Of a stretch of 64,000 bases of DNA, positions 36,377 to 58,298 are shown one piece after another. The translations under genes were made by a program, and so were the position numbers. The stretch lies in the NCBI RefSeq assembly GCF_016745235.1, contig NZ_JAELVM010000002.1, positions 1 to 64,000 of the forward strand, given 5' to 3'. Within the stretch, counting starts at the first letter, position 1, and every line of letters begins with the position of its first letter. The notes below the pieces were generated by a model. That model ran no database searches and was not told the origin of the DNA. It worked only from the letters and a program-made list of their open reading frames with translations. The stretch is from Chryseobacterium endalhagicum. GTDB taxonomy: Bacteria; Bacteroidota; Bacteroidia; Flavobacteriales; Weeksellaceae.

Positions 36377-37372
36377 ATGAAACTTAACTTTGAACACCAT
36401 CAGACCGCACATTGCGAAAACGGTGTCGCCTCCAATCTCTTATTAAATAAAGGCTTAAAACTCAGTGAACCAATGATCTTCGGGATCGGCTCCGGACTGT
36501 TTTTTGTCTATCTGCCCTTTCTGAAAGTCAATTTTGCTCCCGGCTTCAGCTATCGTCCGATGCCCGGTGCTATTTTCAGCAAAGCAGCCAAAAGATTGGG
36601 AATTAAAATCAAAAGAGAAAAATTTTCTAATCCTAAAGAAGCACAGTCTGCTTTGGAAAGAAATTTAAATCAGAATATCCCGACAGGACTTCAGGTAGGC
36701 GTTTTCAACCTTACCTATTTCCCTGAAGAATATAAATTCCACTTCAATGCCCACAATCTTGTAGTATATGGAAAAGAGGACGGAAAATTCCTGATCAGCG
36801 ATCCGGTGATGGATTATACCACATCCTTATCCGAAGCTGAACTGGAAAAAGTAAGATATGCCAAAGGCGCCCTGCCTCCAAAAGGCCATATGTACTACCC
36901 TACTTATATTCCAGAACATGTGAATCTGGAAGAAGCCATCAAAAAAGGAATCAAAGATACCTGTAAAAACATGCTGGCTCCGGTTCCTCTTATCGGAGTA
37001 AAAGCCATGAGATGGGTCGCCAGAAGCATCCCGAAATGGGCAGAAAAGAAAGGAACCAAAGTCACCAACCATTATCTCGGCCAGCTGATCAGAATGCAGG
37101 AAGAGATCGGTACCGGAGGCGGAGGTTTCAGATTTATTTACGGAGCATTTCTTCAGGAAGCAGCTGTCATTCTTAAAAATGATGAATTAAAAGAGCTGTC
37201 TAAAGAAATTACTGCCATTGGTGATTTGTGGAGAGACTTCGCCGTGGATATTGCCCGGGTTTATAAAAACAGAAACTCAAAAAGTGATATCTACAACAAC
37301 CTTTCAAAATCTATGCTCCATATTGCTGATCTGGAAGAAGCTTTCTATAAAAAACTGAGAAAAGCGATTTGA
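36377..37372 (+). CDS. BtrH-like acyltransferase (papain-fold)
   Basis: A 331-residue protein with a BtrH N-terminal domain: HCENGVASNLL puts the nucleophile Cys at residue 13, NAHNLVVYG a His at 126 and ISDP an Asp at 142, a papain-like order Cys-His-Asp. In butirosin synthesis BtrH moves an acyl group from an ACP to an amine. Here the gene lies among ACP and ketosynthase genes, so transfer of the aryl polyene acyl chain to dialkylresorcinol (or to another alcohol or amine) is a reasonable guess, not shown. Starts 66 bp after the small XRE-like gene and ends 1 bp before the ABC ATPase gene. Confidence 0.85.
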   Translation: MKLNFEHHQTAHCENGVASNLLLNKGLKLSEPMIFGIGSGLFFVYLPFLKVNFAPGFSYRPMPGAIFSKAAKRLGIKIKREKFSNPKEAQSALERNLNQNIPTGLQVGVFNLTYFPEEYKFHFNAHNLVVYGKEDGKFLISDPVMDYTTSLSEAELEKVRYAKGALPPKGHMYYPTYIPEHVNLEEAIKKGIKDTCKNMLAPVPLIGVKAMRWVARSIPKWAEKKGTKVTNHYLGQLIRMQEEIGTGGGGFRFIYGAFLQEAAVILKNDELKELSKEITAIGDLWRDFAVDIARVYKNRNSKSDIYNNLSKSMLHIADLEEAFYKKLRKAI

Positions 37373-37373
37373 T

Positions 37374-38132
37374 ATGGCGGAGAATATGATTGAGATCAAA
37401 AATCTCTACAAAAAATACAAAAACTCCGAGGAGTTTTCTGTCAATGACATCTCGCTGAATATTGAGAAAAATGAGATCTATGGAATTCTGGGGCCCAACG
37501 GTGCAGGAAAAACCACGCTGATCTCCATGCTTTCCGGATTGATCAAACCGACTTCCGGGCAGTTTACCATCAATGGACTTTCTCCCCAGAAGGACAGTTT
37601 TAAAATCAAAGAAATTATCGGTATTGTTCCTCAGGAATACGCATTGTATCCTACGCTTACCGCTAAAGAAAATTTAATGTTCTACGGAAGCCTGTATGGT
37701 TTAAAACATAAAGAACTTAAAAAAACCATTGATGAATCTTTAGAGATCATGGGTCTTTCAAAATTTGCCGATAAACAGGTAGAACAGTTTTCCGGAGGAA
37801 TGAAACGCCGCTGCAATCTTATCGCCGGAACCCTTCATAACCCGAAAGTTCTGTTTCTCGATGAACCGACCGTTGGTGTTGATGTTCAGTCCAAAAAAGT
37901 AATCATTGATTTCTTACAGGAGCTCAACAAAAACGGAACATGCATCATTTATACGTCCCATCACCTTTCCGAAGCGGAAGAGTTCTGTACAAAGATCGCT
38001 ATTATCGACAGGGGAAGAATCCACGCGGTAGGAACCCCGGAAGAACTTGTGAACCAGATCGCCAACGCTGAAAACCTGGAAGACGTTTTCATATCATTAA
38101 CAGGAAAAGAATTAAGAGATGTTGTTGTATAA
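37374..38132 (+). CDS. ABC transporter ATP-binding protein
   Basis: A 252-residue ABC ATPase with Walker A GPNGAGKTT (about residues 43-51), Q-loop PQEYALYP, signature FSGGMKRR (about 138-145), Walker B VLFLDEPTVGVD and switch His TSHHLSEAEEF. It is of the short type that pairs with ABC-2 permeases, and its start is followed by the matching permease gene overlapping by 14 bp. It would energise export of a pigment intermediate or of lipid. It is one of two candidate export systems in the locus, the other being the MMPL fusion. Confidence 0.95.
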   Translation: MAENMIEIKNLYKKYKNSEEFSVNDISLNIEKNEIYGILGPNGAGKTTLISMLSGLIKPTSGQFTINGLSPQKDSFKIKEIIGIVPQEYALYPTLTAKENLMFYGSLYGLKHKELKKTIDESLEIMGLSKFADKQVEQFSGGMKRRCNLIAGTLHNPKVLFLDEPTVGVDVQSKKVIIDFLQELNKNGTCIIYTSHHLSEAEEFCTKIAIIDRGRIHAVGTPEELVNQIANAENLEDVFISLTGKELRDVVV

Positions 38133-39387
38133 ACTTTGGAGAAGCTTCGTGAAGGAAATCCTTCTTCTGAAGAGAGATATTGGGGGAATTGTCATTATTT
38201 TCGTCATGCCCCTGCTGTTAATTGTAACGATCACTTTAATTCAGGATTCCACGTTCAAAAATCTGGAAGGTTCAAAAATCCCGATTATTTTTATTGACAA
38301 TGACAAGTCCGAGGTCTCAAAAAGCATAAAACAGGAACTGGAAACCAGCAAAACATTCCAGCTGCTGACCAATTACAATGAAAAATCGGCACAGGATGCT
38401 GTATTTTCCGGAGATTATCAGATGGCTATCGTCATTCCTGAAAATTTAACGAAAGATTTAAATTCAAATATAGATTCCAAAGTTCAGACGATTGTAAGTT
38501 CGTTCGGACTGGAAGGAGATTCTGCGGCCGTTAAAAAAACAGCTCCGAAAGCAAAAGAAATTCATCTGTATTTTGATCCGGCTACCAATGCAGGATTTAA
38601 AAATTCAGTGATGAACTCAGTGAACAAAATGGTTTTTGAGATCGAGAACAAAAAGATCTACAAAGCTTTCCAGGATCAGCTCGGAACCGAAGAAAATCTT
38701 GAAGAAAATAAAAACCTGATCAGTTTCAAAGAGATTACTCCGAAAAAAGGAACCATGGACGTAATGCCGAATTCCGTTCAGCACAATGTTCCTGCATGGA
38801 CGCTCTTTGCCATATTCTTTATTGTCGTTCCGCTTTCTATCAATTTAGTAAAAGAAAAAAGCCAGGGAACCAGCGTGAGAGCCAGAATCAGCCCGACGCC
38901 GTATTTTGTTCATATTTTAGGAAAAACATTTACGTATCTTATCATCTGTATCATTCAGTTTTTACTGATGGTCGCGGTAGGAATTTATCTTTTCCCGTAT
39001 ATGGATCTTCCGGCTTTCGATGTTTCAGGAAAAATGTTCCATCTTCTTGTGGTCACCCTGTTTTCAGGACTGGCGGCTATCGGATTTGGCGTTTTACTGG
39101 GAACGATTGCCGACACACAGGAGCAGTCTGCGCCATTTGGAGCCACTTCGGTAGTTGTTCTGGCGGCCATCGGAGGAATCTGGGTTCCGGTATTTCTAAT
39201 GCCTGAATTTATGCAGACCGTGGCTAAATTTTCTCCAATGAACTGGGGACTAAATGCCTATTACGATATTATTTTAAGAAACAGCGGTATCGGTGGAATT
39301 GCCAGGGAGCTTGCCTTCCTTTTTGCATTCTACATTGCGATGGTCGCGATTTCTATTTTTTACGAAAGGAAACAAAATGCAGTCTAA
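38119..39387 (+). CDS. ABC-2 type transporter permease
   Basis: A 422-residue permease of the ABC-2 type. TM1 is near residues 22-42 (IVIIFVMPLLLIVTITLI), followed by a large periplasmic domain (about 45-215), and a cluster of five further helices (about 220-410). The cytoplasmic loop holds VKEKSQGTSVRAR, the usual contact with the ATPase. Its 5' end overlaps the ATPase gene by 14 bp and its 3' end overlaps the thioesterase gene by 11 bp, so the three form one translational unit. The substrate is unknown. Confidence 0.93.
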   Translation: MLLYKLWRSFVKEILLLKRDIGGIVIIFVMPLLLIVTITLIQDSTFKNLEGSKIPIIFIDNDKSEVSKSIKQELETSKTFQLLTNYNEKSAQDAVFSGDYQMAIVIPENLTKDLNSNIDSKVQTIVSSFGLEGDSAAVKKTAPKAKEIHLYFDPATNAGFKNSVMNSVNKMVFEIENKKIYKAFQDQLGTEENLEENKNLISFKEITPKKGTMDVMPNSVQHNVPAWTLFAIFFIVVPLSINLVKEKSQGTSVRARISPTPYFVHILGKTFTYLIICIIQFLLMVAVGIYLFPYMDLPAFDVSGKMFHLLVVTLFSGLAAIGFGVLLGTIADTQEQSAPFGATSVVVLAAIGGIWVPVFLMPEFMQTVAKFSPMNWGLNAYYDIILRNSGIGGIARELAFLFAFYIAMVAISIFYERKQNAV

Positions 39388-39802
39388 AGAAAACCTATTA
39401 ACCTGTACCGAAGAGGTAAGAGTAAGATTCAACGAGACAGATCCGCTGGGTATTGTCTGGCATGGACATTATATTGTGTATTTCGAGGACGGAAGAGAAG
39501 CTTTCGGCCGTGAGCACGGACTTACTTATCTGGATATTCAGAAGGCAGGCTTTGTAACGCCTATCGTAAAAAGCACCTGTGAACATTTTCTTCCTTTAAA
39601 ATATGGAGAAACTTTCAGGATCGTTACCACTTTCGTGAATTCAAGATCTGCCAAGCTGATTTATACCTACGAACTCTTCAATCAGGACGATCAGTTGGTA
39701 TGCAGCGGAGAAACCATCCAGGTTTTCCTTGACAGTAATGGCAGCTTATGCCTGTACAATCCTGAGTTTTTTCAGGCATGGAAAGATAAAATGGGATTAT
39801 AA
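39377..39802 (+). CDS. Acyl-CoA/ACP thioesterase, 4HBT type
   Basis: A 141-residue hot-dog thioesterase. The ATG at 39377 (MQSKEN) is chosen over a longer frame from 39293 that overlaps the permease by nearly 100 bp. The catalytic block FNETDPLGIVWHGHYIVYFE has Asp22 and the HxxYxxxxE pattern of 4-hydroxybenzoyl-CoA thioesterases. In aryl polyene loci such a protein edits or releases acyl-ACP. It overlaps the permease gene by 11 bp and the ketosynthase gene by one base (TAATG). Confidence 0.9.
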   Translation: MQSKENLLTCTEEVRVRFNETDPLGIVWHGHYIVYFEDGREAFGREHGLTYLDIQKAGFVTPIVKSTCEHFLPLKYGETFRIVTTFVNSRSAKLIYTYELFNQDDQLVCSGETIQVFLDSNGSLCLYNPEFFQAWKDKMGL

Positions 39803-40956
39803 TGAGGAAGGAAATTTATATTACAGATTACAACTGCGTCACTCCTTTAGGATTTGATGTTTCTTCTAACTGGAACCACCTGGAAGAAGGAAAATCAGGC
39901 GTAGCCCTCCATAAAGTTATTGAAAATCAGGAAGCTTTTTATGCTTCAATGATTGATACTGAAAAACTGGAAGAAGAATTCAAACACCATTTTGACCGTC
40001 AGGACTTTACAAGACTGGAAAAAATGTTTCTTCTGAGCTTAAAACCACTGGTTGAAAAACATGATATTTCGGAAAAAACCGCATTCATTTTGTCAACAAC
40101 CAAAGGAAATATCAGCTTACTTAAAAACCAGACGGAATTACCGGAAGGCGTTTATCTTTCAAAATTAGCACAGAAAATTGCTGACTATTTTGGATTTAAA
40201 ACAAAACCCATCGTGGTTTCCAATGCCTGCGTTTCAGGAGTAATGGCTATAGCTGTTGCTAAAAACATGATCCAGGCAGGAAAATATAAAGACGCTTTTG
40301 TGATTGCCGGTGATGAGGTTTCTGAGTTTGTGATCTCAGGTTTCAATTCTTTCCAGGCTATCGGAACAGAACCCTGCAAGCCTTATGATCGGAACAGGAA
40401 CGGAATCAATATCGGTGAAGCAGCAGCGGCTATGTATATTACAGACAGTCATTCTTCGGCTCCACTCAGAATGACAGAAAACGAAAATTTTAGGTTTAAA
40501 ATTCTTGGAGATTCCGCAGTGAATGATGCCAATCATATTTCCGGCCCTTCCAGAACGGGAGACGGACTGTATGCCAGCATTAAAAATGCGATGACAGAAG
40601 CCAATATCACATCGGAACAGATTGATTTTATTTCTGCACACGGAACAGCCACCCTATATAACGATGAAATGGAAGCCATTGCCTTCAACAGAATGGAACT
40701 TCAAAATGTTCCTCTCAACAGTATGAAAGGCTATTACGGACACTGCCTTGGCGCATCGGGACTTTTGGAAAGTATAATCTCCATGGAAAGTGCCCGTCAT
40801 GAATTATTGATCCCTTCTAAAAACTTTCAGGAAATGGGAGTTTCCCAGCCGTTGAATATCATTAAAGAAAATCAGCCTGCAGCTATTCAGTATATTTTAA
40901 AAACAGCTTCCGGATTTGGCGGGTGCAATGCAGCGGTTGTTTTAGAAAAATGTTAA
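39802..40956 (+). CDS. 3-oxoacyl-ACP synthase (KS1)
   Basis: A 384-residue FabF-type ketosynthase for chain extension. The Cys-His-His triad is complete: Cys143 (NACVSGVM), His280 (SAHGTAT) and His314 ([10 protein letters not shown]). It is shorter than FabF (about 410) and diverges at the N-terminus, as KS proteins of flexirubin and aryl polyene clusters do. It starts inside the stop of the thioesterase gene (TAATG) and ends two bases before a half-size KS-like gene. A specific place in the chain (starter or later rounds) cannot be assigned. Confidence 0.92.
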
Positions 40957-40957
40957 A

Positions 40958-41603: not shown

Positions 41604-41861
41604 ATGGAAAACTTAAAAACAGAATTGAAGCACAAAATCATTGAAGTCCTTAACCTTGAAGATGTTTCTGTAGAAGAGATCAAAGATACTGATCCGTTGT
41701 TCGGAGGAGGTCTTGGACTGGATTCTATCGATGCCCTTGAGCTTATTGTTCTTCTTGATAAAGATTACGGAATTAAATTGGCTGATCCTAAAAAAGGAAA
41801 GGAAATTTTCGCGTCTATTGATACAATGGCTGCGTTCATTGAAGAAAACAGAACGAAATAA
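41604..41861 (+). CDS. Acyl carrier protein (ACP1)
   Basis: An 85-residue carrier protein. The phosphopantetheine site is Ser41 in GLGLDSIDALEL. The helix I region (LKTELKHKIIEVLNLEDVS) and helix III (KGKEIFASIDTMAAFI) fit the ACP fold. It is acidic, as expected. In this locus it should carry the growing aryl polyene chain. It is bounded on both sides by octamer hairpin repeats, which separate it from the half-KS and the KS2 genes. Confidence 0.96.
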   Translation: MENLKTELKHKIIEVLNLEDVSVEEIKDTDPLFGGGLGLDSIDALELIVLLDKDYGIKLADPKKGKEIFASIDTMAAFIEENRTK

Positions 41862-41948: not shown

Positions 41949-43148
41949 ATGAGTCGAAAAATTGCCATCACGGGAATGGGTATCATTTCCTCCATCGGAA
42001 ACAATGTGGAGGAAAATTTTATTTCGCTAAAAACCGGAAAACACGGAATTTCAGATATTGAAATGTTTGAAACCCGTCATGCCGGAACCATAAAAACAGG
42101 TGAAATAAAATGGTCCAATGAAGAGCTTGTACAAAAACTTCAGCTGCCTGAGGATAATAATGTAACGAGAACCTCTTTATTGGGGATGATCGCCGCAAAA
42201 GAAGCTGTAGAATCTGCCGGAATTTCAGATCTTAATGAATACAAAACCGGACTGATCTCTTCCACCAGCGTAGGCGGAATGGATATCACAGAAAAATACT
42301 TCTACTCCTACGAAAACTTTCCCGAAAAGCAAAAATACATTGACGCCCATGATGCAGGCAATTCATCTTTGGCTATCGCTGATTATCTGGGATTAAAAGG
42401 AATGGTTTCTACCATCAGCACGGCCTGTTCTTCTGCGGCCAATGCTATTATGATGGGGGCAAAACTCATTAAAAGCGGAGTACTGGACCGCGTCATTGTA
42501 GGCGGAACAGATTCTCTTTCAAAATTTACCCTGAATGGGTTCAACACCCTGATGATCCTTACAGATTCTTACAATACTCCGTTTGATAACGACAGGAAAG
42601 GTCTGAACCTTGGTGAAGCGGCTGCTTTTATCGTCCTTGAATCCGATGAGGTTGTAAAAAAAGAAAACAAAAAAGTATTAGCCTATCTTTCCGGTTATGG
42701 GAATGCCAATGATGCCCACCATCAGACGGCATCGTCAGAAAACGGACAGGGCGCCTTTTTAGCCATGCAGCAGGCTTTGAAAATATCCGGATTGGCAAAA
42801 GAAGATATCAATTATATCAACGTTCACGGAACGGCTACCCCCAATAATGATCTTTCGGAGGGAATTGCCATGATCAGGATCTTCGGTGAAGGGCAGGTTC
42901 CGGAATTCAGTTCTACGAAAGCTTTTACGGGACATACTTTGGCCGCGGCGGCAGGAATTGAAGCGGTTTATTCAATTTTAGCAATGAAGCACGGTCTTAT
43001 TTTCCCGAATCTGAATTTCAAAACGAAAATGGCTGAATTTGATCTAACTCCGGTAACAGAACTGAAAGAAAAAGACATCCATCATGTGCTTTCCAATTCA
43101 TTCGGGTTCGGAGGCAACTGTTCTACTTTAATTTTTTCAAAATCATGA
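41949..43148 (+). CDS. 3-oxoacyl-ACP synthase (KS2)
   Basis: A 399-residue FabF-like ketosynthase with the full triad: Cys160 (STACSSAAN), His293 (NVHGTAT) and His329 (FTGHTLAAAAG). It overlaps the following chain-length-factor-like gene by four bases (ATGA), the arrangement of a KS/CLF heterodimer in type II polyketide systems and in ApeO-ApeC of the E. coli aryl polyene system. It should be the main chain-extending enzyme of the polyene acid. Confidence 0.94.
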   Translation: MSRKIAITGMGIISSIGNNVEENFISLKTGKHGISDIEMFETRHAGTIKTGEIKWSNEELVQKLQLPEDNNVTRTSLLGMIAAKEAVESAGISDLNEYKTGLISSTSVGGMDITEKYFYSYENFPEKQKYIDAHDAGNSSLAIADYLGLKGMVSTISTACSSAANAIMMGAKLIKSGVLDRVIVGGTDSLSKFTLNGFNTLMILTDSYNTPFDNDRKGLNLGEAAAFIVLESDEVVKKENKKVLAYLSGYGNANDAHHQTASSENGQGAFLAMQQALKISGLAKEDINYINVHGTATPNNDLSEGIAMIRIFGEGQVPEFSSTKAFTGHTLAAAAGIEAVYSILAMKHGLIFPNLNFKTKMAEFDLTPVTELKEKDIHHVLSNSFGFGGNCSTLIFSKS

Positions 43149-44206
43149 GCGCAGTATACATCAACAGTGCATCCTGCATCTCGGTACAGGACACTTTAAA
43201 AGATCAGTTTTTCACGGATCTCACTTCCGAAAATTCCGCTCAGATCTTAAAAGCAGTGGAACCTAATTATAAAGAATTCATTCCGCCTGCTATGATCAGG
43301 AGAATGTCCAAAACGGTAAAAATGAGCTCCGTTGCGTCACATTATGCTTTGAAAGAAGCAGGAATTGAGCAGCCGGGCGCCATTATTGTTGGAACGGGAA
43401 TGGGTTGCTCCCAGGATTCTGAAAAGTTCCTGAAAAATGTGATCGATAATAACGAGGAATTTTTGACCCCTACGTTTTTTATCCAGTCTACACACAATAC
43501 GGTTGCAGGGCAGATTGCTTTAGGGCTGCAGTGCCATGCCTACAATTTCACTTATGTGAATACTTCGTCATCCCTGGAATTTTCATTTCTGGATGCGAAA
43601 CTTCAGATCAATGACGGTGAGGCAGAAAATGTTCTTGCAGGCGCTGCAGATGAGCAGACCGACAGAACAATGGAACTGTACCGTTTAAACAATACCATTA
43701 AAAAAGAAGAAGATCTTCCAGCGGATTATTTACATTCGGCGACGGATGGCGTGATCTGGGGCGAAGGTGCCGCTTTCTTTGTGCTGGGGAAAGACCAGAC
43801 AGAGAATTCCTATGCGAAACTTACGGACATTCAGATCAGTAACCGATCAGACATCGAAGAAATTCCGTCTTTTATTACTGATTTTTTAGCCAAAAACAAG
43901 TTGAAGAGTGAGGACATTGATGCAGTGATTTTAGGATTCAGCGGCGATGCAAAATCTGATGTTCATTATACAAAAGCAATGGATTTATTTCAAAATTCTT
44001 CGTTACTTTATTACAAACATCTGAGCGGCGAGTTTAATACGGCAAGCGGTTTTTCAACATTTATGGCCTGTCATATATTAAAAGCACAGCAAATTCCGGA
44101 TATCATGATGATCAATTCAGAGAAAAAAGCTGAAATAAAGAATGTTCTTCTTTATAATCATCTGGCGGGAAGTGATCATAGTCTGGTGTTGCTGGAAAAA
44201 GTTTAA
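43145..44206 (+). CDS. Chain-length-factor-like KS partner (no catalytic residues)
   Basis: A 353-residue protein with KS fold but every catalytic residue replaced: the Cys block reads VNTSSSLEF (Ser at about 141), the HGT block reads GFSGDAK, and the KxxxGH block reads KHLSGEF. It is therefore a chain-length factor or ApeC-like partner that shapes the KS2 pocket and sets polyene length. Four-base overlap with KS2 supports an obligate dimer. After its stop comes a run of heptamer repeats before the next gene. Confidence 0.9.
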   Translation: MSAVYINSASCISVQDTLKDQFFTDLTSENSAQILKAVEPNYKEFIPPAMIRRMSKTVKMSSVASHYALKEAGIEQPGAIIVGTGMGCSQDSEKFLKNVIDNNEEFLTPTFFIQSTHNTVAGQIALGLQCHAYNFTYVNTSSSLEFSFLDAKLQINDGEAENVLAGAADEQTDRTMELYRLNNTIKKEEDLPADYLHSATDGVIWGEGAAFFVLGKDQTENSYAKLTDIQISNRSDIEEIPSFITDFLAKNKLKSEDIDAVILGFSGDAKSDVHYTKAMDLFQNSSLLYYKHLSGEFNTASGFSTFMACHILKAQQIPDIMMINSEKKAEIKNVLLYNHLAGSDHSLVLLEKV

Positions 44207-44213: not shown

Positions 44214-44266
44214 TTTGCTTATTGCTTATTGCTTATTGCTTATTGCTTATTGCTTATTGCTTATTC
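44214..44266. repeat. Heptamer tandem repeat (ATTGCTT)n
   Basis: Six perfect ATTGCTT units (44221-44262) preceded by one variant (TTTGCTT). It lies 24 bp upstream of the deacetylase ATG and just after the CLF stop codon. The unit length is not a multiple of three. Confidence 0.92.
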
Positions 44267-44290
44267 AAAGAACGACTAAAATTCAAAAAG

Positions 44291-45046
44291 ATGAAACATT
44301 ATCCATTCATTATATTTTATCTTTTCTGCAACGTTTTTATTTATGCGTTTCACGGAAGTTTCTGGGTATATCTGGCCTGTTTTCTTGCTTTTTCGGCAGT
44401 CGTGGTTTGGGGATCTTTTGATATTACGCTGGGTTATTTTGTGAACAGCATTACCCATAAAAGAACGAAAATCAATGAAGTAGCCCTCACATTTGATGAC
44501 GGACCTACTGAATTCACTCCAAAATTTTTAGATCTGCTTAAAGATAATCAGGTGAAAGCTACTTTTTTCTGCATCGGAAAACAGATTGAAAAATATCCCG
44601 AAACATTCCAGAGAATCATTACGGAAGGCCACACCATAGGAAATCATACACTTTCTCATTCAAATAACACGGGTTTTTTATCTACTTCAAAAATGGTTGA
44701 AGAAATTGAAAAATGCGACGAAGTGATGGCTAAGACCGGAACTATACAAACGGATCTGTACAGGCCGCCTTTCGGGGTTACCAATCCCAGTATTGCAAAA
44801 GCGATCAAAAGGACTCATAAAAAAAGCATCGGCTGGAATGTCCGTTCACTGGACACGGTGACTGATGATGAAAAAAAGATCTACAGGAGAGTGACCAAAG
44901 GCCTGAGAAAAGGAAGCATTATCCTGCTCCACGACACGTCTGAAAAGACGTATCATGTATTGGTAGATTTATTGTTATTTTTGAAGGATAAAAAATATTC
45001 GACGTTTACGATCGATTCAATGACAAATTCAACGAAAAATGATTAA
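44291..45046 (+). CDS. Polysaccharide deacetylase family protein (NodB), membrane anchored
   Basis: A 251-residue protein. I start it at the ATG at 44291, after the heptamer repeat; the open frame continues through the repeat from 44222 and encodes only LIAYCL-type filler. Two hydrophobic helices (residues 1-50) anchor it, then a NodB deacetylase domain: motif 1 TFDDGPT, motif 2 HTLSH (metal His pair), motif 3 YRPPFG, motif 5 ILLHD. Deacetylases of this type are common in aryl polyene and flexirubin loci, with unknown substrate. It overlaps the LolA-like gene by eight bases. Confidence 0.88.
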   Translation: MKHYPFIIFYLFCNVFIYAFHGSFWVYLACFLAFSAVVVWGSFDITLGYFVNSITHKRTKINEVALTFDDGPTEFTPKFLDLLKDNQVKATFFCIGKQIEKYPETFQRIITEGHTIGNHTLSHSNNTGFLSTSKMVEEIEKCDEVMAKTGTIQTDLYRPPFGVTNPSIAKAIKRTHKKSIGWNVRSLDTVTDDEKKIYRRVTKGLRKGSIILLHDTSEKTYHVLVDLLLFLKDKKYSTFTIDSMTNSTKND

Positions 45047-45665
45047 AAATATAGCGCTGGGAGCGTTTTTATTAGTGTCCGGATTCTTTTCTGCCCAGTT
45101 GACAGCGATGTCCGGAGCGGAAGCAAAAGCATTTGTGGCCAAAGTTTCTTCTGAAACCAAGGAGATCAAAACACTTCAGAGCGATTTTACCCAGACCAAA
45201 AAAATGGATTTTCTGGACAAAAATATCGTGACTTATGGAAAAATGTCTTTAAAATCTCCCAATATGCTGAGCTGGAAATATACCAAGCCGTACCAGTACA
45301 GTATTATTTTTAAAGACAGCAAAATTTTCATCAATGATCAGGGGAAAAAATCGTCTGTAGATGCCAAGAGCAAAACATTTGAAAAGATCAATAAGCTGAT
45401 CGTGGGAAGCTCGAACGGAAAAATGTTCAGTGATCCGGAATTTACCGTTTCCTATTACAAAAACGGGAATTTCAATGTGGCGAAATTCACGCCTAAATCT
45501 TCCCAGCTGCTGAAATACATCAAGCAGATTGAACTGCATTTCCCGAAAAACCAATCTACGGTTTCTCAGGTGAATATGACGGAAGCTTCCGGTGATACTA
45601 CAAATATTGTTTTCAAAAATACTAAGATCAATGCCGCGATTGCTGCTTCGGAATTTAGCCTGTAG
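45039..45665 (+). CDS. LolA-like periplasmic carrier protein
   Basis: A 208-residue secreted protein of the LolA fold, which carries lipids or lipoproteins through the periplasm. A signal peptide covers residues 1-19. The mature part has the LolA repeat pattern: SDFTQTKKMDFLDKNIVTYGKMSLKSP and LSWKYTKPYQYSIIFKD are typical. Aryl polyene clusters include such a LolA homologue, thought to carry pigment to the outer membrane. It overlaps both the deacetylase gene (8 bp) and the following lipoprotein gene (35 bp). Confidence 0.9.
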   Translation: MIKNIALGAFLLVSGFFSAQLTAMSGAEAKAFVAKVSSETKEIKTLQSDFTQTKKMDFLDKNIVTYGKMSLKSPNMLSWKYTKPYQYSIIFKDSKIFINDQGKKSSVDAKSKTFEKINKLIVGSSNGKMFSDPEFTVSYYKNGNFNVAKFTPKSSQLLKYIKQIELHFPKNQSTVSQVNMTEASGDTTNIVFKNTKINAAIAASEFSL

Positions 45666-46272: not shown

Positions 46273-46273
46273 C

Positions 46274-46876: not shown

Positions 46877-46880
46877 CATC

Positions 46881-47252
46881 ATGCAGACGATTCTTACAGA
46901 CTTTTACACCTTACAGTCATACGAAAAAGCAGAAAACGGAAGTTTTACAGCCTATATCCATCTGAATAAAGATCATGATATTTTTAAGGGCCATTTTCCC
47001 GGAAATCCGGTAACTCCGGGAGTTTGTATGATGCAGATTGTAAAGGAACTGACGGAAGAGTTTACGGCCTCAAAGCTGTTCTTAAAATCGGCCTCGAACG
47101 TAAAATTCATGGCCATCATTAATCCTTTTGAGACACCGGACCTGAAACTTCAACTGGATATTACTGAAGATGAACAAGGTGTTAAAGTAAAGAATATCAC
47201 TTCTTTTGGCGAGACTATTGCATTAAAGATGTCTGTAAGCTATAAAAAATAA
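46881..47252 (+). CDS. 3-hydroxyacyl-ACP dehydratase-like hot-dog protein (ApeI type)
   Basis: A 123-residue hot-dog protein carrying the block GHFPGNPVTPGV (His38) seen in FabA/FabZ/ApeI dehydratases; it lacks the LPHR block of FabZ. It probably dehydrates 3-hydroxyacyl-ACP chains, with a partner or as a homodimer. Together with the two FabZ-like proteins near darB, the locus has three hot-dog proteins of the dehydratase type. It lies 4 bp after the barrel gene and 4 bp before a hypothetical secreted protein. Confidence 0.87.
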   Translation: MQTILTDFYTLQSYEKAENGSFTAYIHLNKDHDIFKGHFPGNPVTPGVCMMQIVKELTEEFTASKLFLKSASNVKFMAIINPFETPDLKLQLDITEDEQGVKVKNITSFGETIALKMSVSYKK

Positions 47253-47256
47253 TATT

Positions 47257-47733: not shown

Positions 47734-47737
47734 AACA

Positions 47738-49188: not shown

Positions 49189-51816
49189 TTATTTTGAAAC
49201 GATGATTTTCTGGCTGTAATCAATGGCGTTACCCGTGATTTTTACCATGTATGCTCCATTCAGCAATCTGTTAACATTAACGGTAGTCTGTTTGTTAAGA
49301 TTAATTCTTTCCGTAGCCACAAGTTTACCTGTAAAATCATAAATGGATACGGTCGTAATTCCAGACAGATCCATTCCTGAAGGGGTTTTGATCGTAAATT
49401 CATTTTTCACCGGATTTGGATAGATTGAGATTCCTTTGGAATTTGACTCAGTTTCATTCACCGCCAGAGTTCCGCATTCTGCAGGGATGCTAAAGTTTTC
49501 CACCTGATCATCCAAATCCTGTCCGCTTCCAAAAATAAGTCCGCTAAGACCGCCCGGAGCTGCATTCACACCCAGTCCCCTTTTGGCAAAAACTTTCCAG
49601 ATCATGCATTTATCCTGTCCGCCGGTTTTTGCCTGATCTGCTGCTAAAATAGCATCTCTTCCCTGCTTGAAGTTTGGATTACACGGTTGTAATTTAAGCG
49701 CATCTACCACCAGCTGCAGTACTCTTGCACTTCCACTGTTTGGATCGGCCATTACATCACTGTTATACCCGTATTTCTCAACGTACTTCCAATGAAGATC
49801 CCAAAGCATGGTAGCCCATACAAATCCGATGCTGTGAACATCAGGTTTTGATACGGGTATTCCTATAAAAGTACCAGGAACCTTCATCCCGTTCGTTCTT
49901 CCGTAGGTATAATTATTGACGGCAAAATCAGGTGAATATTTAGCTGGTCTTATTCCACTTCCATCAATCTGCTGTTCTTTCGCAAAAGTTCCTACTCCTC
50001 TGGCTACTGACGCATTGTCTCCAGGTCTGTTGGTTAGCATTAAGGCAAAAAAGTCCGACCAGCCTTCTCCCATTTGTTCATTCGAGGTCGTAGCAGACAG
50101 GCAGGCATTTCCTGTTCCCGTCATCCGGTTGGAAATACCATGCCCGTATTCATGAATTACAATACCATTATCCAGACTTCCGTCTTTATAAATATAATTG
50201 AGTTTGTCATATTTCAATGTTGAATTAATAACTGCCCCACCTGCAATTTCATTGGCTAAAAAAGCTCCTTCAGGATTTTCAATTAAAACAGATGGAATCG
50301 TTATGGAAGCATCAGTGCCACCCATTCCGCCAAAACCTACCGATGCCGGGACGTTATATATGACAGCTCCTACAGCTCCTTTCAGCTGGGCATTTTTTAC
50401 TTTTACTGCAAATCCGCACGTTCCTCTTTGTATCACTGCTATTTTTCCCGTCAGATTTTCACTAATTGCAGTACAGCCGTCAGCAGGCGTAGTAAGAGCC
50501 AGATTGGCGGTTACAGGCGGAATAGTCTCAAGCTTTGGACCAAATTCCGCGGTTCTGCTTTTAAAAGTTCTTGATGTATAAGTGGAAGGAGAGTTGTAGA
50601 ATAGATTCTGCATATTGTCCGGCTCCCACAGATACATCTGCATTCTTGGTGGAGTACCGTCAGCAGTGGGACTGAAATTGGCATTATTGTATCCGCCTCC
50701 ATCCCATGCTTCGGCCAGAACAGCATCACCCTGAGAACTGCCTTTGCCAAAATTATTGGTCTGAAAATTTTTAGCTGTTTCTGTAAATCCAAACTTGTAA
50801 AATACATCATGCACTTTATTATTAACGTAGAACAGATTCGTGACTGATGCAGATTTGTAATTCTGTGCAGGCAGGCTGACATCCATCGGAAAGTTAAAAT
50901 TTCTTGCCGTACCGCCATCCGGAGAAAACTGCGGTGTATTTGTATTATTTTCATCCGTATAGGCATACACATTGTTTCCTCTGGTATTGGTATACGTGTT
51001 CGTCCCGTCAGAATGCCATCCTTCAGGAGAGGCAGTAATCTCCCACGGATTATTGAGCAATGCACGGCTTCCAAAGGTAGGAGCTTCTACAGGGAAAGGC
51101 AGTACATTATAGGATGCATTGTCCGGCACCAGAACAAAATTATTGCTTCCTTTACCACTTCCGTAATTCAGATGTACAGGTCCCTGGACCGGATGAAACA
51201 TTTCCGTATGATGCTCATAAGCATCTTCATGAAAATTACAGGAAAGAGTCCGTTTTTCTGTGTATAAAATGGTCCCGTCATCTGTGCTTATAATCACATC
51301 CCACATAGCGCCTGTTCCTTTTTCTTTTACATCAAACCGGTACCCAAGAATCAGCTCACCATCTTTTGCAAAGTAAACCGATTGGGTTTTTAAAGGTTCT
51401 TCCCTGCCTTCAATATTCGGGGCGGTAGAATATCCGTTGATTTTTTCGGCTGCTTCTGCAACTAATCCCTCTTTTCCGGCATTCTGCTTGCCTTTTACAC
51501 GGGAAGGATATGTTTTGATAAAAGTATCTGCAAAGCTTAAGACTTTATCCTCTCTTATCAGAACATTAGCCGAACTTCCAAAGACCGGGATCCCATTAAC
51601 AGTCTGCTGTATTCCTACAACATCACCTTTTAAACTTGTTGAATGGTCTACATTGACAATGGTAAATACTTTCAGTTCAGGATTTATTCTCTGGAATGTC
51701 TTTTCGGAATTAACGTATTCTTTGATAACCTGTTCATGGTTCTGAGCATTGGACCAGCCAAAACCGAATAAAGAACAAAGCAGTAAAAATCTGATACTTA
51801 GTTGATTTTTCTTCAT
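49189..51816 (-). CDS. T9SS-secreted M36 (fungalysin-like) metallopeptidase, copy 1
   Basis: About 875 residues (start at the ATG at 51816, MKKNQLS; the frame continues five residues further). Order: signal peptide (ending SNAQ), FTP-type propeptide with STDDGTILY (about 30-200), the M36 catalytic domain with VIHEYGHGI (HExxH) and the third ligand GEGWSDF, an inserted PA domain (about 440-530, TGKIAVIQRGTCGF), and a C-terminal T9SS type A sorting domain (about 790-875) starting ISIYPNPVK. It is secreted and degrades extracellular protein. The paralogue on the same strand is at 52150. A terminator follows. Confidence 0.93.
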   Translation of the reverse strand: MKKNQLSIRFLLLCSLFGFGWSNAQNHEQVIKEYVNSEKTFQRINPELKVFTIVNVDHSTSLKGDVVGIQQTVNGIPVFGSSANVLIREDKVLSFADTFIKTYPSRVKGKQNAGKEGLVAEAAEKINGYSTAPNIEGREEPLKTQSVYFAKDGELILGYRFDVKEKGTGAMWDVIISTDDGTILYTEKRTLSCNFHEDAYEHHTEMFHPVQGPVHLNYGSGKGSNNFVLVPDNASYNVLPFPVEAPTFGSRALLNNPWEITASPEGWHSDGTNTYTNTRGNNVYAYTDENNTNTPQFSPDGGTARNFNFPMDVSLPAQNYKSASVTNLFYVNNKVHDVFYKFGFTETAKNFQTNNFGKGSSQGDAVLAEAWDGGGYNNANFSPTADGTPPRMQMYLWEPDNMQNLFYNSPSTYTSRTFKSRTAEFGPKLETIPPVTANLALTTPADGCTAISENLTGKIAVIQRGTCGFAVKVKNAQLKGAVGAVIYNVPASVGFGGMGGTDASITIPSVLIENPEGAFLANEIAGGAVINSTLKYDKLNYIYKDGSLDNGIVIHEYGHGISNRMTGTGNACLSATTSNEQMGEGWSDFFALMLTNRPGDNASVARGVGTFAKEQQIDGSGIRPAKYSPDFAVNNYTYGRTNGMKVPGTFIGIPVSKPDVHSIGFVWATMLWDLHWKYVEKYGYNSDVMADPNSGSARVLQLVVDALKLQPCNPNFKQGRDAILAADQAKTGGQDKCMIWKVFAKRGLGVNAAPGGLSGLIFGSGQDLDDQVENFSIPAECGTLAVNETESNSKGISIYPNPVKNEFTIKTPSGMDLSGITTVSIYDFTGKLVATERINLNKQTTVNVNRLLNGAYMVKITGNAIDYSQKIIVSK

Positions 51817-51831
51817 ATTGTTTTTTTGCAA

Positions 51832-52149: not shown

Positions 52150-54819
52150 TTATTTTGAAACGATGATTTTCTGGCTGTAATCAATGGCGTTACCCGTAAT
52201 TTTTACCATGTATGCTCCATTCAGCAGTGTATTAACATTAACGGTAGTCTGTTTGTTAAGATTAATTCTTTCTGTAGCAACAAGTTTTCCTGTAAAATCA
52301 TAAATGGATACGGTCGTAATTCCGGACAGATCCATTCCTGAAGGGGTTTTGATCGTAAATTCAGTTTTCACCGGATTTGGATAGATCGAGATTCCTTTGG
52401 AGCTGGAAGCAGTTTCATTCACCGCCAGAGTTCCACATTCTGCCGGGATGGTGAAGTCTTCCACCTGATCACTTAAAGCCGGCGCCGGCTGATTGAATCC
52501 TTGATACATTCCTGTAAGCGCGCCAGGAGCAGCGTTTACTCCCAATCCTCTTTTAGCAAATGCTTTCCAGATCATACATTTATCTGCTCCGTTTGTTTTT
52601 GCCATTTCAGCAGCCAGGATAGCATCTCTTCCCTGTATGAAATTCGGGTTACAAGGCTGTAGTTTAAGGGCGTCTACCACCAGCTGAAGTACTCTTGCGC
52701 TTCCGCTGTTCGGATCTGCCAGTACATTGCTGTTGTAACCGTATTTCTCAACATATTTCCAGTTAAGATCCCAAAGCATCGTTGCCCACACGAACCCGAT
52801 ACTGTGTACATCTGCTCTTGTAATAGGAAGAATTCCCAAAAGGATATCATTAACCTTCATTCCGTTGGTTCTTCCGTAGGTATAATTATTAACGGTAAAG
52901 TCAGGTGAATATTTGGCGGGTCTTATTCCTCCTCCAGTAATAGGCTGACTGGATGTGAAAGTACCAATTCCTCTGGCCACGGAAGCGTTATCTCCCGGTT
53001 TGTTGGTAAGCATTAAAGCAAAGAAATCAGACCATCCTTCTCCCATCTGCTCGTTGGAAGTTCCGTAATTCAGGCAGTTGCTTCCCGTACCCGTCATACG
53101 GTTGGTGATACCATGACCGTATTCATGGGCTACAACTCCATTATCTAAACTTCCGTCTTTGTATACGTAATTTAATTTATCATATTTTAAAGTGGCATTA
53201 ATGACCGCCCCATTTGTAATTTCATTCACTAAAAACTCTCCTTCTGTTTTTCCGATCATAATCGTCGGGATCGTAATGGTAGCATCAGAACCTCCCAATG
53301 GTATCGCTACATCACTGTTCGGATGATACTGTACTACTCCAATTGCACCGGCATTCTGAAGATTTTTAGTTTTAACGGCAAAACCACAATTGGCAGGTCC
53401 TGCTGCATTAAGTACCGCTATTTTACCCGTTAAGCTACCCGCTGCTACGGCCGTACAGCCATCTGCAGGCACAGAAAGTGACAGATTTCCGGTTACCGGC
53501 GGATTTCCTTCCAGTCTCGGGCCAAACTGTGCTGTTTTGCTGAAAGGCGTTCTTGCTGTATACGCTGATGGTGAATTGTAGAAAAGATTCTGCATTTCTG
53601 CAGGCTCAAACAAATACATCTGCATTCTTGGTACAGATCCTTCAGCCGGAGACTGGAAATTCGCGTTGTTGTAAGCTCCGCCGTCTCTGGCTTCTGCTAA
53701 AACGGCATCATTCCCTGTTCCCCCTGCAGCAAAATTACTGGTCTGAAAGTTTCTGGCGGTTTCTGTAAATCCTAATTTATAAAATACATCATGCATTTTA
53801 TTATTCACATAGAATAAATTGGTTACAGCAGCAGAGGTATAGTTTTGCGGAGGCAGCGTCACATCCATCGGGAAATCAAAAGCTCTTGCCGCGCCTCCAT
53901 CCGGAGAGAACTGAACGGTATTGTTCCCGATTTCATCTGTATAGGCAAATACGTTGTTTCCTCTTGTATTGGTATAACGGGTGGTCCCGTCAAAATGCCA
54001 TCCTTCCGGGGAAGCTGTGACATCCCAAGGATTATTCAGCAGTGCTCTGTTTCCGAAAGAAGGTGCTTCTACCGGGAAAGGCAATACATTATAGGATGCA
54101 TTATCGGGAGCCAGAACAAAATTCTGGTTAAGCTTATTGGCGTTGATATCTAAATATTCCGGAAGACCGGCAGGCTGGGCATTCTGCTCTCCGGCAGGAA
54201 GTCCCGTTGGAAGATGTTCGTAGGCATCCTCATGGAAATTACAGGAAAGGGTAAGGTTCTCACGGTATAGAACTGAGCCGTCATCTGTACTGATCACCAC
54301 AGTCCAAAGGTTTCCGGTTCCTTTCTCTTCGATATTGAACTGGTATCCCAGAATAAGTTCTCCTCCATTAACGAAATAAACAAGCTGGGTCTTAATCGGA
54401 ACTTCTTTTCCTTCGCTGTTCTTTGAAGTGGTAAGTCCGTTGAATTTATTTGCTGTTTCAGCAACCAGTGCATCTTTTGCTGCACTCTGTTTTCCTTTTA
54501 TGCTGGATGGGTAAGTCTTGATAAAAGTATCTGCAAAACTCAGGACCTTATCTTCTCTTACCAGAACATTGGCTGAACTTCCAAATACCGGAATTCCATT
54601 AATCGTCTGCTGTATTCCTACGATATCTCCTTTCAAACTTTTAGAAGGGTCAACGTTTATGATGGTAAATGCTTTCAGCTCAGGATTTATTCTCTGAAAT
54701 GTTTTTTCAGAATTAACGTAATCTTTGATCACCTGCTCATGTTTCTGAGCGGACCATACGCCAAAACTTAAAAATGAACCAAGCAATAAAAGCTTTACAC
54801 TGAGTCGAATTCTTTTCAT
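52150..54819 (-). CDS. T9SS-secreted M36 (fungalysin-like) metallopeptidase, copy 2
   Basis: 889 residues, collinear with the paralogue at 49189: signal peptide (ending VWSAQ), FTP propeptide, M36 catalytic domain with VAHEYGHGI and GEGWSDFFA, PA insertion (TGKIAVLNAAGPANCGF), and T9SS type A sorting domain. Differences are spread through the body (for example a longer ELPEYLDINAN-type loop near residue 225), but the last 85 residues are almost identical to copy 1, including at DNA level. Both are secreted proteases lying between the two arms of the pigment locus; a role in pigment is not indicated. Confidence 0.93.
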   Translation of the reverse strand: MKRIRLSVKLLLLGSFLSFGVWSAQKHEQVIKDYVNSEKTFQRINPELKAFTIINVDPSKSLKGDIVGIQQTINGIPVFGSSANVLVREDKVLSFADTFIKTYPSSIKGKQSAAKDALVAETANKFNGLTTSKNSEGKEVPIKTQLVYFVNGGELILGYQFNIEEKGTGNLWTVVISTDDGSVLYRENLTLSCNFHEDAYEHLPTGLPAGEQNAQPAGLPEYLDINANKLNQNFVLAPDNASYNVLPFPVEAPSFGNRALLNNPWDVTASPEGWHFDGTTRYTNTRGNNVFAYTDEIGNNTVQFSPDGGAARAFDFPMDVTLPPQNYTSAAVTNLFYVNNKMHDVFYKLGFTETARNFQTSNFAAGGTGNDAVLAEARDGGAYNNANFQSPAEGSVPRMQMYLFEPAEMQNLFYNSPSAYTARTPFSKTAQFGPRLEGNPPVTGNLSLSVPADGCTAVAAGSLTGKIAVLNAAGPANCGFAVKTKNLQNAGAIGVVQYHPNSDVAIPLGGSDATITIPTIMIGKTEGEFLVNEITNGAVINATLKYDKLNYVYKDGSLDNGVVAHEYGHGITNRMTGTGSNCLNYGTSNEQMGEGWSDFFALMLTNKPGDNASVARGIGTFTSSQPITGGGIRPAKYSPDFTVNNYTYGRTNGMKVNDILLGILPITRADVHSIGFVWATMLWDLNWKYVEKYGYNSNVLADPNSGSARVLQLVVDALKLQPCNPNFIQGRDAILAAEMAKTNGADKCMIWKAFAKRGLGVNAAPGALTGMYQGFNQPAPALSDQVEDFTIPAECGTLAVNETASSSKGISIYPNPVKTEFTIKTPSGMDLSGITTVSIYDFTGKLVATERINLNKQTTVNVNTLLNGAYMVKITGNAIDYSQKIIVSK

Positions 54820-56247: not shown

Positions 56248-56253
56248 ATACAA

Positions 56254-56619
56254 TTATTTAAAAACAACATCCGAAAAAGATAACGGACTCATAATAAGGG
56301 TGACAAATATGGCGAGAATGATCAGCACCATCTGGTATTGGCTATGGGTTTTTGCCTGATCTTCTTCTTTCGCTTCAAAAGTAAATTTAATGGCATCCGG
56401 CTTTTTGATGATCCTCCAGATAAAGCCCAAAAGAATTAAGTTTAATGCAATGGGTGCAAAGAGGAACAGTTTGCTTCCAAACCCGTCGTTTTTCCCTCCA
56501 TAGCCATGAATAGGGATAATATCCGGAATGGAACTGTACCTTGTCATCAGATAAGCGGTATAGCAGAAAATAATGGCAAAAGGAATACAAAACAGCAGTT
56601 TTATATGTTTCGGGATCAT
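56254..56619 (-). CDS. DUF1648-family membrane protein
   Basis: A 121-residue protein with three transmembrane helices (about 8-28, 50-70, 95-112) and the DUF1648 pattern SSIPDIIPIHGYGGKNDGFGSK between the first two. Function unknown. Its start overlaps the stop of the C45 acyltransferase gene by four bases (ATGA) and it precedes the alpha/beta hydrolase gene, so it belongs to one minus-strand transcript with the pigment arm. Confidence 0.85.
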   Translation of the reverse strand: MIPKHIKLLFCIPFAIIFCYTAYLMTRYSSIPDIIPIHGYGGKNDGFGSKLFLFAPIALNLILLGFIWRIIKKPDAIKFTFEAKEEDQAKTHSQYQMVLIILAIFVTLIMSPLSFSDVVFK

Positions 56620-58298
56620 TTTAATTTTTTTAAAGTTTTTTTGAGATATTTCTCTACATTCTTCCGGTCCGGAACCGTGGTTATTTCTTTTGTCAGGGCT
56701 TTTTCAAAAGCAATTTTAGCATTTGTATATTCTTTCTTACTGTAATAATATTTTCCGGACTGATAATACACCAGCCAGAAATCAGGGTTCATGGATTGAT
56801 AGTAAGGGATAAAATCATCTGTTAAAAAGATCTGATCATTATCTGTGGCAGCATTCACTTCTGTGCTCAGCATTTTATACATTTCGTAATTCTGATAGTC
56901 GTCGGAATCCGCAAAAGGATCTCTGGCGATATTCAGCCCGGTTTTCGCTTTCAGGCTTTCTTCCGCTTTTCTGCCGGAAAAAATCTCGTTCAGATCATAG
57001 CATACAAATTCTCCCAGCTGGTAAGGATTTGACGAAACCCATACCAATCTCTTCTCAGGGGAGAAAATGACAGCATGATGAGCCAGCAGCTGGTTGATGG
57101 CTTTTTCGTTTCCGTAGCCAATTTTCTCATCTTTCAAACCGGATTTTTCGCGTAAGATGGCAGCCATTTTCTCAGGATTCAGCTTTCTGTTTTCCTGAAG
57201 AAGCTCCTGAAGCTTTTCGTAGCGGTATTCGGAGTGGCTTTCTATTATATGCTTCTGGTTTCTTTTATCATCTTTATAAGCTTCGGACTGAAAATGATTG
57301 GTACAGAAAACCCGGCTGGTATTTTCAACCCTGTACACGCCGAAATTATCCGGTGAAACTTCAATGATAACGGCATTTTTGTCATGAGCACTTCCTACGA
57401 GAATAGATTCTGACACAAATACCTTTCTTTTTTTCGCAATGGCAATCGCCTCATCAATATTTTTCGCGTATTGCAGAATCTCCCTTGTCACAAGAGAAAT
57501 CGGGGTTTTGGCCGTCAGCGGAATTTTAGATTTTCCGGCATTGATGGTCACGGTGATGCCTTCTTTATTCATCCCTGAAACTACGCCTATCATTCCCGGC
57601 CAGCTTACGGACATATAAGGAATTCCCGTATCGGGTTCTACAAATTCCACGAGTTTATTTTTAGCAAAATCATCCCCGACGTAAAAGTCAAAATTTCTTC
57701 CGATCAGTAATTCTCCGTCTTCCGTATTTTCGTTCCATACGGCCAGTGAAGTGCATCCCACCATCGCCAGATCCTGCATGGCATGGCCAATATCGTGAGC
57801 ACCGTGCAGATAAAGGTTCCGAAGATATTTAGGCGCAATAAAATTGTATTGATCCGATGAATATTGTGACAGTCCGTACAATTCTGCCTGATAATCCTCT
57901 CTTACATTCAGGTACATTTTTCTGTTGTACCATTTTAAGAATCCGCGGAGAAGCTTTTGTTTGAATTTTGAAGGAACAAAACCCTCCACTTTGGAAAAGA
58001 AGATCTCTTCCTGCTGCTGCATCAGGTTTTGAGTTAATGCTCCGTTATTATATCCGAGCTGCAAAGGATTTCCCTTGATGTAAAGTTCCCAGAGCTGCTG
58101 TTTGTTTTTGGTTAAATAATTCCGGTTAAAACTGAACGTAGAATCATTGATCTTGCTGACCTTTGGGGTTTCCAGCGTATACCTGCTGATGTCAGGAATA
58201 TGGCGTACAGATTTTGAAATACCGCAGGAAATAAGGGAAAGAATCAGGAAAAACTGAATTCCCCTGAATACTGCAGCCAGCCTGTTATTTCTTTTCAT
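56616..58298 (-). CDS. C45-family autoproteolytic acyltransferase/hydrolase, lipoprotein
   Basis: A 560-residue protein of the Ntn-hydrolase class related to acyl-CoA:6-aminopenicillanate acyltransferase. A lipoprotein signal ends LISC (Cys25). The autoproteolytic nucleophile is Cys182 in MVGCTSLAVW, where self-cleavage would free the Cys; the following NFDFY and WPGMIGVVSGMN are typical. The C-terminal 60 residues look like a TPR-type helix pair. As outer-membrane or periplasmic acyltransferase it is a candidate for joining aryl polyene to dialkylresorcinol. It overlaps the CrtI-like gene by 14 bp. Activity is inferred. Confidence 0.88.
   Translation of the reverse strand: MKRNNRLAAVFRGIQFFLILSLISCGISKSVRHIPDISRYTLETPKVSKINDSTFSFNRNYLTKNKQQLWELYIKGNPLQLGYNNGALTQNLMQQQEEIFFSKVEGFVPSKFKQKLLRGFLKWYNRKMYLNVREDYQAELYGLSQYSSDQYNFIAPKYLRNLYLHGAHDIGHAMQDLAMVGCTSLAVWNENTEDGELLIGRNFDFYVGDDFAKNKLVEFVEPDTGIPYMSVSWPGMIGVVSGMNKEGITVTINAGKSKIPLTAKTPISLVTREILQYAKNIDEAIAIAKKRKVFVSESILVGSAHDKNAVIIEVSPDNFGVYRVENTSRVFCTNHFQSEAYKDDKRNQKHIIESHSEYRYEKLQELLQENRKLNPEKMAAILREKSGLKDEKIGYGNEKAINQLLAHHAVIFSPEKRLVWVSSNPYQLGEFVCYDLNEIFSGRKAEESLKAKTGLNIARDPFADSDDYQNYEMYKMLSTEVNAATDNDQIFLTDDFIPYYQSMNPDFWLVYYQSGKYYYSKKEYTNAKIAFEKALTKEITTVPDRKNVEKYLKKTLKKLK

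Follow-up and report, generated by a model that had tools for sequence, protein, structure and literature searches.

A BtrH-type protein, DarH, as a candidate for the ester-forming enzyme of flexirubin-type pigments in Chryseobacterium endalhagicum

Flexirubins, long-used chemotaxonomic markers of Bacteroidota, consist of an aryl polyene joined to a dialkylresorcinol (DAR) by an ester, and the enzyme of this defining bond has, to our knowledge, only been guessed at. DarA and DarB from Chitinophaga pinensis suffice to form DAR in Escherichia coli, and the same 2014 study tentatively assigned the ester bond to the 'ligase-like' protein FlxW (PMC3992019). The dar locus of Azoarcus sp. BH72 is unlinked to the two polyene loci and includes darE, described as a 'BtrH-like peptidase' (PMC3949708); LolA2 and LolB2 accompany flexirubin loci (PMC11885536). 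CcbD works by a ping-pong mechanism in which an acyl group is taken from a carrier protein onto a cysteine and passed to an amine (PMC12945683), and for CtaG, transfer of a carrier-bound 4-hydroxybenzoyl group has been suggested (PMC6772006). Neither DarH nor a flexirubin ester enzyme was the subject of any paper found in a literature search in which subscription papers were thinly covered. Here, we analyse a stretch of 64,000 nucleotides from Chryseobacterium endalhagicum (RefSeq assembly GCF_016745235.1, contig NZ_JAELVM010000002.1, positions 1 to 64,000, hereafter the window) that holds a flexirubin gene cluster, and examine which of its proteins may form the ester.

We consider it probable that DarH is a cytoplasmic BtrH-type acyltransferase with a papain fold that joins the two flexirubin halves, its chemistry being what we infer from the following observations. 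The protein exceeded the Pfam gathering scores of BtrH_N (167.8 versus 29.7 bits) and DUF4872 (197.6 versus 28 bits) and the equivalog cut-off of NCBIfam NF053550, DarH_acyl (506.4 versus 300 bits). This model is named 'BtrH-related acyltransferase DarH' in NCBIfam release 20.0 (June 2026), so that NCBI already recognises the family and labels it an acyltransferase. The residues Cys13, His126 and Asp142, correctly picked out as a triad in the original prediction made from the nucleotide sequence, were invariant in all 70 aligned DarH sequences, and no signal peptide was seen by eye. An AlphaFold2 model (pLDDT 90.2, pTM 0.88) predicted the architecture of CtaG and CcbD, with a papain-like fold at the N-terminus and helices making up the C-terminal domain. 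Among the PDB matches listed, the only full-length ones were CtaG (Z 24.3, root-mean-square deviation 3.4, 294 residues aligned), AziU3/U2 (Z 23.8, 4.0, 304 residues) and CcbD (Z 21.8, 4.3, 303 residues), the last solved with a peptidyl carrier protein domain. Four basic residues, R286, R294, K297 and R299, are conserved at 90–100% in DarH and, counting back from the C-terminus, fall where CcbD has its carrier-binding Arg312-324, a correspondence of position and not of residue-by-residue alignment.

We determined the distribution of DarH in two genome samples. In 159 genomes of Bacteroidia, including that of the window, DarB was scored at the NF005293 cut-off, DarH at its own cut-off, a C45-family protein also encoded in the window at E ≤ 1e-40, and a CLF-like polyene ketosynthase (KS) at E ≤ 1e-12. 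DarB was present in 29 genomes and DarH in 28, with 27 containing both; the C45 protein was found in 27 and the CLF-like polyene KS in 31. DarB occurred without DarH in G212 and G284, and DarH without DarB in G280, a genome that is 78% complete. The second sample comprised 258 genomes of Gammaproteobacteria, with counts made on 257 after leaving out the chosen centre (G288) and with NF006618 as the polyene KS. Here, 53 genomes had the polyene KS, 14 had DarB (all polyene-positive) and 11 had DarH, so that DarH was found in 11/14 genomes with DarB and polyene KS, in 0/39 with polyene KS alone and in 0/204 with neither. Searches of one taxon were treated as the same draw of genomes, in which those without matches were listed in part, and related genomes in both samples are not independent, which makes Fisher tests on these counts descriptive. 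Since DarA and DarB suffice for DAR, and polyene-only clusters occur without DarH, DarH is needed for neither half. It shows up where both halves are present, which is the pattern expected of a joining enzyme. One further DarH-like protein (161 bits, below the cut-off) was seen in the Bacteroidia genome G183 (L090, 1465-2448); it keeps the Cys and the His, and that genome has no DarB over the cut-off.

For a third, named set, 589 relatives were ranked by their similarity to a Pseudoalteromonas DarB and the best 80 were taken. DarH lay within the stretch in 42 of these 80 DarB loci, 18 from Bacteroidota and 24 from other bacteria including Dechloromonas, Pseudomonas, Paraglaciecola, Hyphomonadaceae, Desulfuromonas-type bacteria and Sulfurovaceae. 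Counted on locus stretches, DarG was present in all 42 DarH loci and in none of 10 other loci searched, and DarA was present in 38 of the 42. Three cyanobacterial genomes of the named set (L243, L270 and L288) that have DarA and DarB but no polyene KS above 253 bits also have no DarH, in favour of a joining role. In Bacteroidia, no more than 10 kb separated DarH from DarB in 20 of 27 genomes. We regard DarG as an obligate partner gene of darH that may be a regulator or an adapter. Its C-terminal helix-turn-helix (HTH) domain matched solved structures at Z about 9–10.6 over residues 65-134, while Pfam HTH_26 stayed below its cut-off. Whether DarG might stand for the AziU2 half of the AziU2-U3 complex was examined by fold; the matches listed contained only HTH domains and not AziU2, which does not exclude that role.

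Other genes recur beside DarH, and two of them lend themselves to other explanations. Of the 42 DarH loci, 40 have an ABC pair, 40 an acyl carrier protein (ACP) and 39 a KS relative at a distance of no more than 8 kb. The ABC pair would suit a DarH that acts on acyl-ACP as a thioesterase, or as a shuttle to the ABC exporter, with the ester formed elsewhere. The C39 peptidases, which are associated with ABC exporters, are relatives of the BtrH_N proteins (PMC10318531), and the N-terminal domain of DarH alone matched C39/PCAT and phytochelatin-synthase-type papain folds at Z about 12–14. However, the C-terminal domain of DarH takes part in the full-length matches to CtaG and CcbD, whereas single-domain C39 peptidases have no such domain, and we consider this explanation unlikely. 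In a second alternative, a KS of the dar block forms the ester and DarH instead releases or loads the acyl chain. KS-like enzymes that form C–O bonds exist, and the proximity of KS and ACP genes to DarH is consistent with such a role. Yet the KS relatives are ordinary members of the condensing-enzyme family, several of which are needed for the polyene, and no ester-specific feature was seen in them; within the dar block, a catalytic triad of the transferase type belongs to DarH alone. A KS as the ester enzyme therefore seems decidedly improbable to us.

Several observations weigh against DarH as the joining enzyme. Five genomes contain DarA, DarB and a polyene marker but no DarH: the Gammaproteobacteria G330, G438 and G532, Pseudomonas cichorii G327, and G284, which is in 360 contigs. 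The stretches read showed no DarG and no ABC pair beside darAB in any of them. Such genomes may produce DAR in free form, the joining genes may have been lost from them or missed in incomplete assemblies, or they may refute the proposal. In the named set, whole-genome tests for polyene KS and DarH covered 47 of the 80 genomes, of which 30 had DarH over the cut-off. The polyene KS exceeded its curated cut-off in 21 of these 30 (26 at a limit of 300 bits, set after the Bacteroidota scores were known), but it also did so in 6 of the 17 DarH-negative genomes, at the cut-off and at 300 bits alike. In this set, the P. cichorii with DarA, DarB and the polyene KS but without DarH is L256. Moreover, co-occurrence by itself cannot single out the catalyst, since DarG, the ABC pair and the KS are distributed nearly like DarH; the choice of DarH thus rests on its family, triad and fold. 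The link to CtaG and CcbD is one of fold only: phmmer found no solved relative at E ≤ 1, and the 11 sequences that came up in a profile search, for the most part helical proteins of artificial design, we took as chance matches. BtrH_N/DUF4872 proteins are also found without carrier-protein genes nearby. Finally, amide formation or action on amines is what the relatives of solved structure are associated with, none being known to us to make an aryl ester, and the chemistry of AziU3/U2 is different.

Some loci seen along the way have their own arrangements. Two of 50 plasmid records with a BtrH_N/DUF4872 match were viewed, L036 (Acinetobacter sp. DUT-2 plasmid, 5953-6924) and L037 (Streptomyces plasmid, 7989-9002); neither has carrier-protein genes nearby, and the neighbours are TetR and GyrI-like genes. 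Of the 50 records, 44 are from Acinetobacter. Colwellia (L227) and Pseudoalteromonas (L230) have a stand-alone StlD-like DarB locus, with DarH and polyene KS elsewhere in the genome. Three loci viewed on plasmids of Bacteroides, Phocaeicola and Prevotella (L032, L033 and L034) contain a DarB-like ketosynthase and a regulator (TetR or HTH) only. Because these three loci hold nothing else, they have no bearing on the ester, and plasmid DarB was rejected as a source of DAR-only loci.

The original prediction had put forward two further kinds of protein for the ester bond, the first being the C45 protein. Its family assignment and its nucleophile were borne out: it matched Pfam AAT (86.1 bits) and NF040521, C45_proenzyme (233.6 versus a cut-off of 85 bits), and residue 182 is Cys in 27/27 C45 homologues. 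It is preceded by G181 in 26/27, which fits a predicted self-cleavage before Cys182. The surrounding stretch aligns weakly (E 0.0005) with the GCT of acyl-CoA:6-aminopenicillanic acid acyltransferase 2x1d; 2x1c, with GAT at that site, is evidently the Cys mutant. The description as a lipoprotein holds for the window copy, which has the lipobox LISC (Cys25), but no more than 4 of 27 homologues, counting the window copy, were found to have one. Inspected by eye, many of the remaining proteins seem to begin with a hydrophobic anchor, although several of the starts are uncertain.

An acyltransferase/hydrolase with a family Cys, exported by its N-terminus, could in principle form the ester outside the inner membrane, and within Bacteroidia its distribution resembles that of DarH, with the C45 protein present in 25 of 28 DarH-positive genomes. 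The three in which it was missing at E ≤ 1e-40 (G099, G168 and G206, the last 83% complete) all have DarB, and conversely G212 and G284 have the C45 protein without DarH. Outside the Bacteroidia sample, we searched 40 genomes, namely 39 of the 47 named genomes and L272. At E ≤ 1e-5 only five had a match, four of them Bacteroidota (482–758 bits) and the fifth, G294, a weak partial match (33.9 bits, 22% identity). A family-level C45 match was thus absent from all 27 non-Bacteroidota DarH genomes, each of which may or may not make the hybrid. Linkage points the same way. The C45 gene was within 10 kb of DarB in 0 of 24 Bacteroidia genomes, whereas a FlxY-type (coumarate) ligase lay within 4 kb of it in 14 of 20 regions, in four of them with an AcpS gene in between. 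On distribution and linkage we reject the C45 protein as the ester enzyme, a role we hold to be highly improbable. This rejection is limited in that a CLF marker without DarH or flexirubin-type DarB was found in three genomes, G212, G158 and G286 (G158 having a DarB-like match of 440 bits, below the cut-off), and that only G212 has the C45 protein. We judge the protein to be part of the Bacteroidota polyene branch, going with one half of the pigment and not with the DAR ester.

G212 is informative since its polyene cluster lacks the joining genes. The two stretches (L150 and L325) encode a ligase, the C45 protein, an oxidoreductase, RND-PlsC, GT2, a dehydratase, LolB2, LolA2, a deacetylase, CLF, KS2, ACP1, KS1, a thioesterase, a lysophospholipid acyltransferase (LPLAT), ACP2, KS3, a ketoreductase and a lyase. 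They contain no DarA, DarB, DarG, DarH or ABC pair, and DarH is absent genome-wide. The sole G212 DarB over the cut-off is elsewhere on the chromosome, beside a TetR gene, and clusters with the Bacteroides-type plasmid DarB (clade with L032 and L034, support 1.0). The C45 protein and relatives of both LPLAT proteins of the window therefore stay when the joining genes are absent.

These LPLAT proteins, the RND exporter with its PlsC domain and a separate Lip_A_acyltrans protein, had been the other candidates. Both are present in the window but lie outside the 36377-58298 interval to which they had been ascribed. They belong to O-acyltransferase families, as an enzyme that esterifies the polyene to DAR might. 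Nevertheless, relatives of both are kept in the dar-less G212 cluster (RND-PlsC at 33%, L150; LPLAT at 40%, L325), and E. coli aryl polyene (APE) clusters, which make no DAR hybrid, carry a lysophospholipid acyltransferase and an acyltransferase/glycosyltransferase (PMC8253772). The LPLAT proteins are thus not specific to the DAR ester, and we rejected them as specific candidates; that either forms the bond is hardly to be expected. With the C45 and LPLAT proteins removed, four candidates are narrowed to one gene with a named nucleophile. The proposed transfer by the BtrH-like protein from ACP to an acceptor was strengthened by the two independent genome samples, the invariant triad, the apparent lack of a signal peptide and the full-length fold matches.

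Table 1. Coordinates of the flexirubin cluster features in the window.
Feature	Position	Strand	Basis
RND (MMPL) exporter with C-terminal PlsC acyltransferase domain, residues 887-996	25107-28760	+	
darA, dialkylresorcinol aromatase	28804-29718	+	position beside DarB; pairs with DarB in related loci
darB, dialkylresorcinol-forming ketosynthase	29720-30859	+	NF053539, 637 bits versus cut-off 550
two FabZ-like dehydratase ORFs	30835-31290, 31296-31739	+	weak FabZ matches below cut-off
DarG, small protein with Cro/C1-HTH-like C-terminal domain	35906-36310	+	NF053545, fold
DarH, BtrH_N + DUF4872, 331 aa	36377-37372	+	Pfam, NF053550, triad, model, fold matches
ABC transporter ATP-binding protein, dar block	37374-38132	+	Pfam
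ABC-2 permease, dar block	38119-39387	+	Pfam
aryl-polyene KS	39802-40956	+	Pfam/NCBIfam
KS-related, 182 aa	40958-41506	+	Pfam/NCBIfam
ACP1	41604-41861	+	PP-binding domain
aryl-polyene KS	41949-43148	+	Pfam/NCBIfam
CLF-like KS	43145-44206	+	Pfam/NCBIfam
polysaccharide deacetylase, LolA2, LolB2, outer-membrane protein, dehydratase, GT2-DUF2062 (polyene assembly/export)	44222-48910	+	Pfam
C45 autoproteolytic acyltransferase/hydrolase, 560 aa	56616-58298	-	Pfam AAT, NF040521
FAD-dependent CrtI-like oxidoreductase beside C45	58285-59820	-	matches below cut-offs of named carotenoid enzymes
LPLAT protein, Lip_A_acyltrans	59972-60856	-	domain match
ACP2, KS, ketoreductase, C-terminal part of tyrosine ammonia-lyase	60969-63967	-	

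The remaining genes of the window (Table 1), which is part of a 4.93 Mb genome in 10 contigs, identify the cluster as flexirubin-type from gene content: DarB exceeded the NF053539 cut-off, and LolB2_flexi (NF053540, 254.5 bits) and Lyase_aromatic were matched. Both darA and darB are in the window and had gone unmentioned in the original prediction; no family model matched DarA. An M16 protease gene (32743-35655, minus strand) splits darAB and the FabZ-like ORFs from darGH in the window, and these are contiguous in another genome of the same genus (G012). Two M36 fungalysin-type proteases (49189-51831 and 52150-54819), each with a PA domain and a type IX secretion system sorting tail, separate the cluster halves. 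The tyrosine ammonia-lyase runs past the window end, and directly beyond it (stretch L189) are the remaining lyase, a FAD-dependent halogenase adjoining it (L189, 1675-2931) and an AMP-ligase. From the halogenase beside the ammonia-lyase, the flexirubin-type pigment may be halogenated.

The distribution, linkage, conservation and predicted fold described above would fit the following scheme, in which donor, acceptor, order of steps and location are our proposal. DarA and DarB would make the dialkylresorcinol, while the type II ketosynthase genes, judging from family knowledge, would assemble the aryl polyene on an ACP, for which ACP1 is the candidate carrier that DarH would accept. By analogy with CcbD, the polyenoyl-ACP may dock at the C-terminal helical domain of DarH and hand its acyl chain to Cys13. 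A phenolic hydroxyl of the dialkylresorcinol, activated by His126 and Asp142, would then attack the thioester to give the aryl ester, which would make DarH an aryl-polyenoyl-ACP:dialkylresorcinol O-acyltransferase; that the acceptor is a phenol, and the product an ester, we infer from co-occurrence. The product could exit through the dar ABC pair, the RND-LolA2-LolB2 route or both. The C45 and both LPLAT proteins would belong to a polyene-lipid branch and would not be needed for the ester bond.

A more far-reaching interpretation, to which we give even chances, is that DarH is a phenol-esterifying, carrier-protein-dependent O-acyltransferase and that darG, darH and the ABC genes form a portable joining cassette, common to Bacteroidota, Pseudomonadota, Desulfuromonas-type bacteria and Sulfurovaceae, that makes a hybrid pigment from two free-standing pathways. 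If DarH acts as we propose, this enzyme is also the one predicted to join the polyene-DAR pigments made by Proteobacteria.

Among described systems, the Azoarcus locus is the most directly comparable. Like darH, darE follows darB and a small gene (darD) and precedes an ABC ATPase, and the strain makes the polyene-DAR ester arcuflavin; darE differs in being an entry of Table 1 of that paper to which its available parts give no role (PMC3949708). FlxW is a candidate for the same bond as DarH but was called ligase-like (PMC3992019). Located two genes before FlxY, FlxW may itself be the C45 gene. The NF053550 family, whose equivalog cut-off the window DarH exceeds, is known to us by its model name. 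BtrH of butirosin biosynthesis shares the Pfam domain BtrH_N with DarH and transfers from ACP to an acceptor (PMC10318531, PMC8430323), but it N-acylates an aminoglycoside, and the two are likened here by domain and description. CtaG of closthioamide biosynthesis (PDB 9qvj and variants C11A, H128A and D144N) has a suggested Cys-His-Asp triad with the same His-Asp spacing of 16 as DarH, whereas its acceptor is the amine of beta-alanine, its product is an amide, and identity to DarH is 11–12%. CcbD and LmbD of lincosamide biosynthesis (PDB 7yn1, 7yn2 and 9dks) share the full-length fold and the catalytic Cys, and the donor of CcbD is a carrier protein; unlike the reaction proposed for DarH, they form an amide with an amino sugar, and they use Cys-His-Glu at 14% identity. 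If DarH joins the flexirubin halves as proposed, the BtrH/CcbD/CtaG group would extend from amides to aryl esters.

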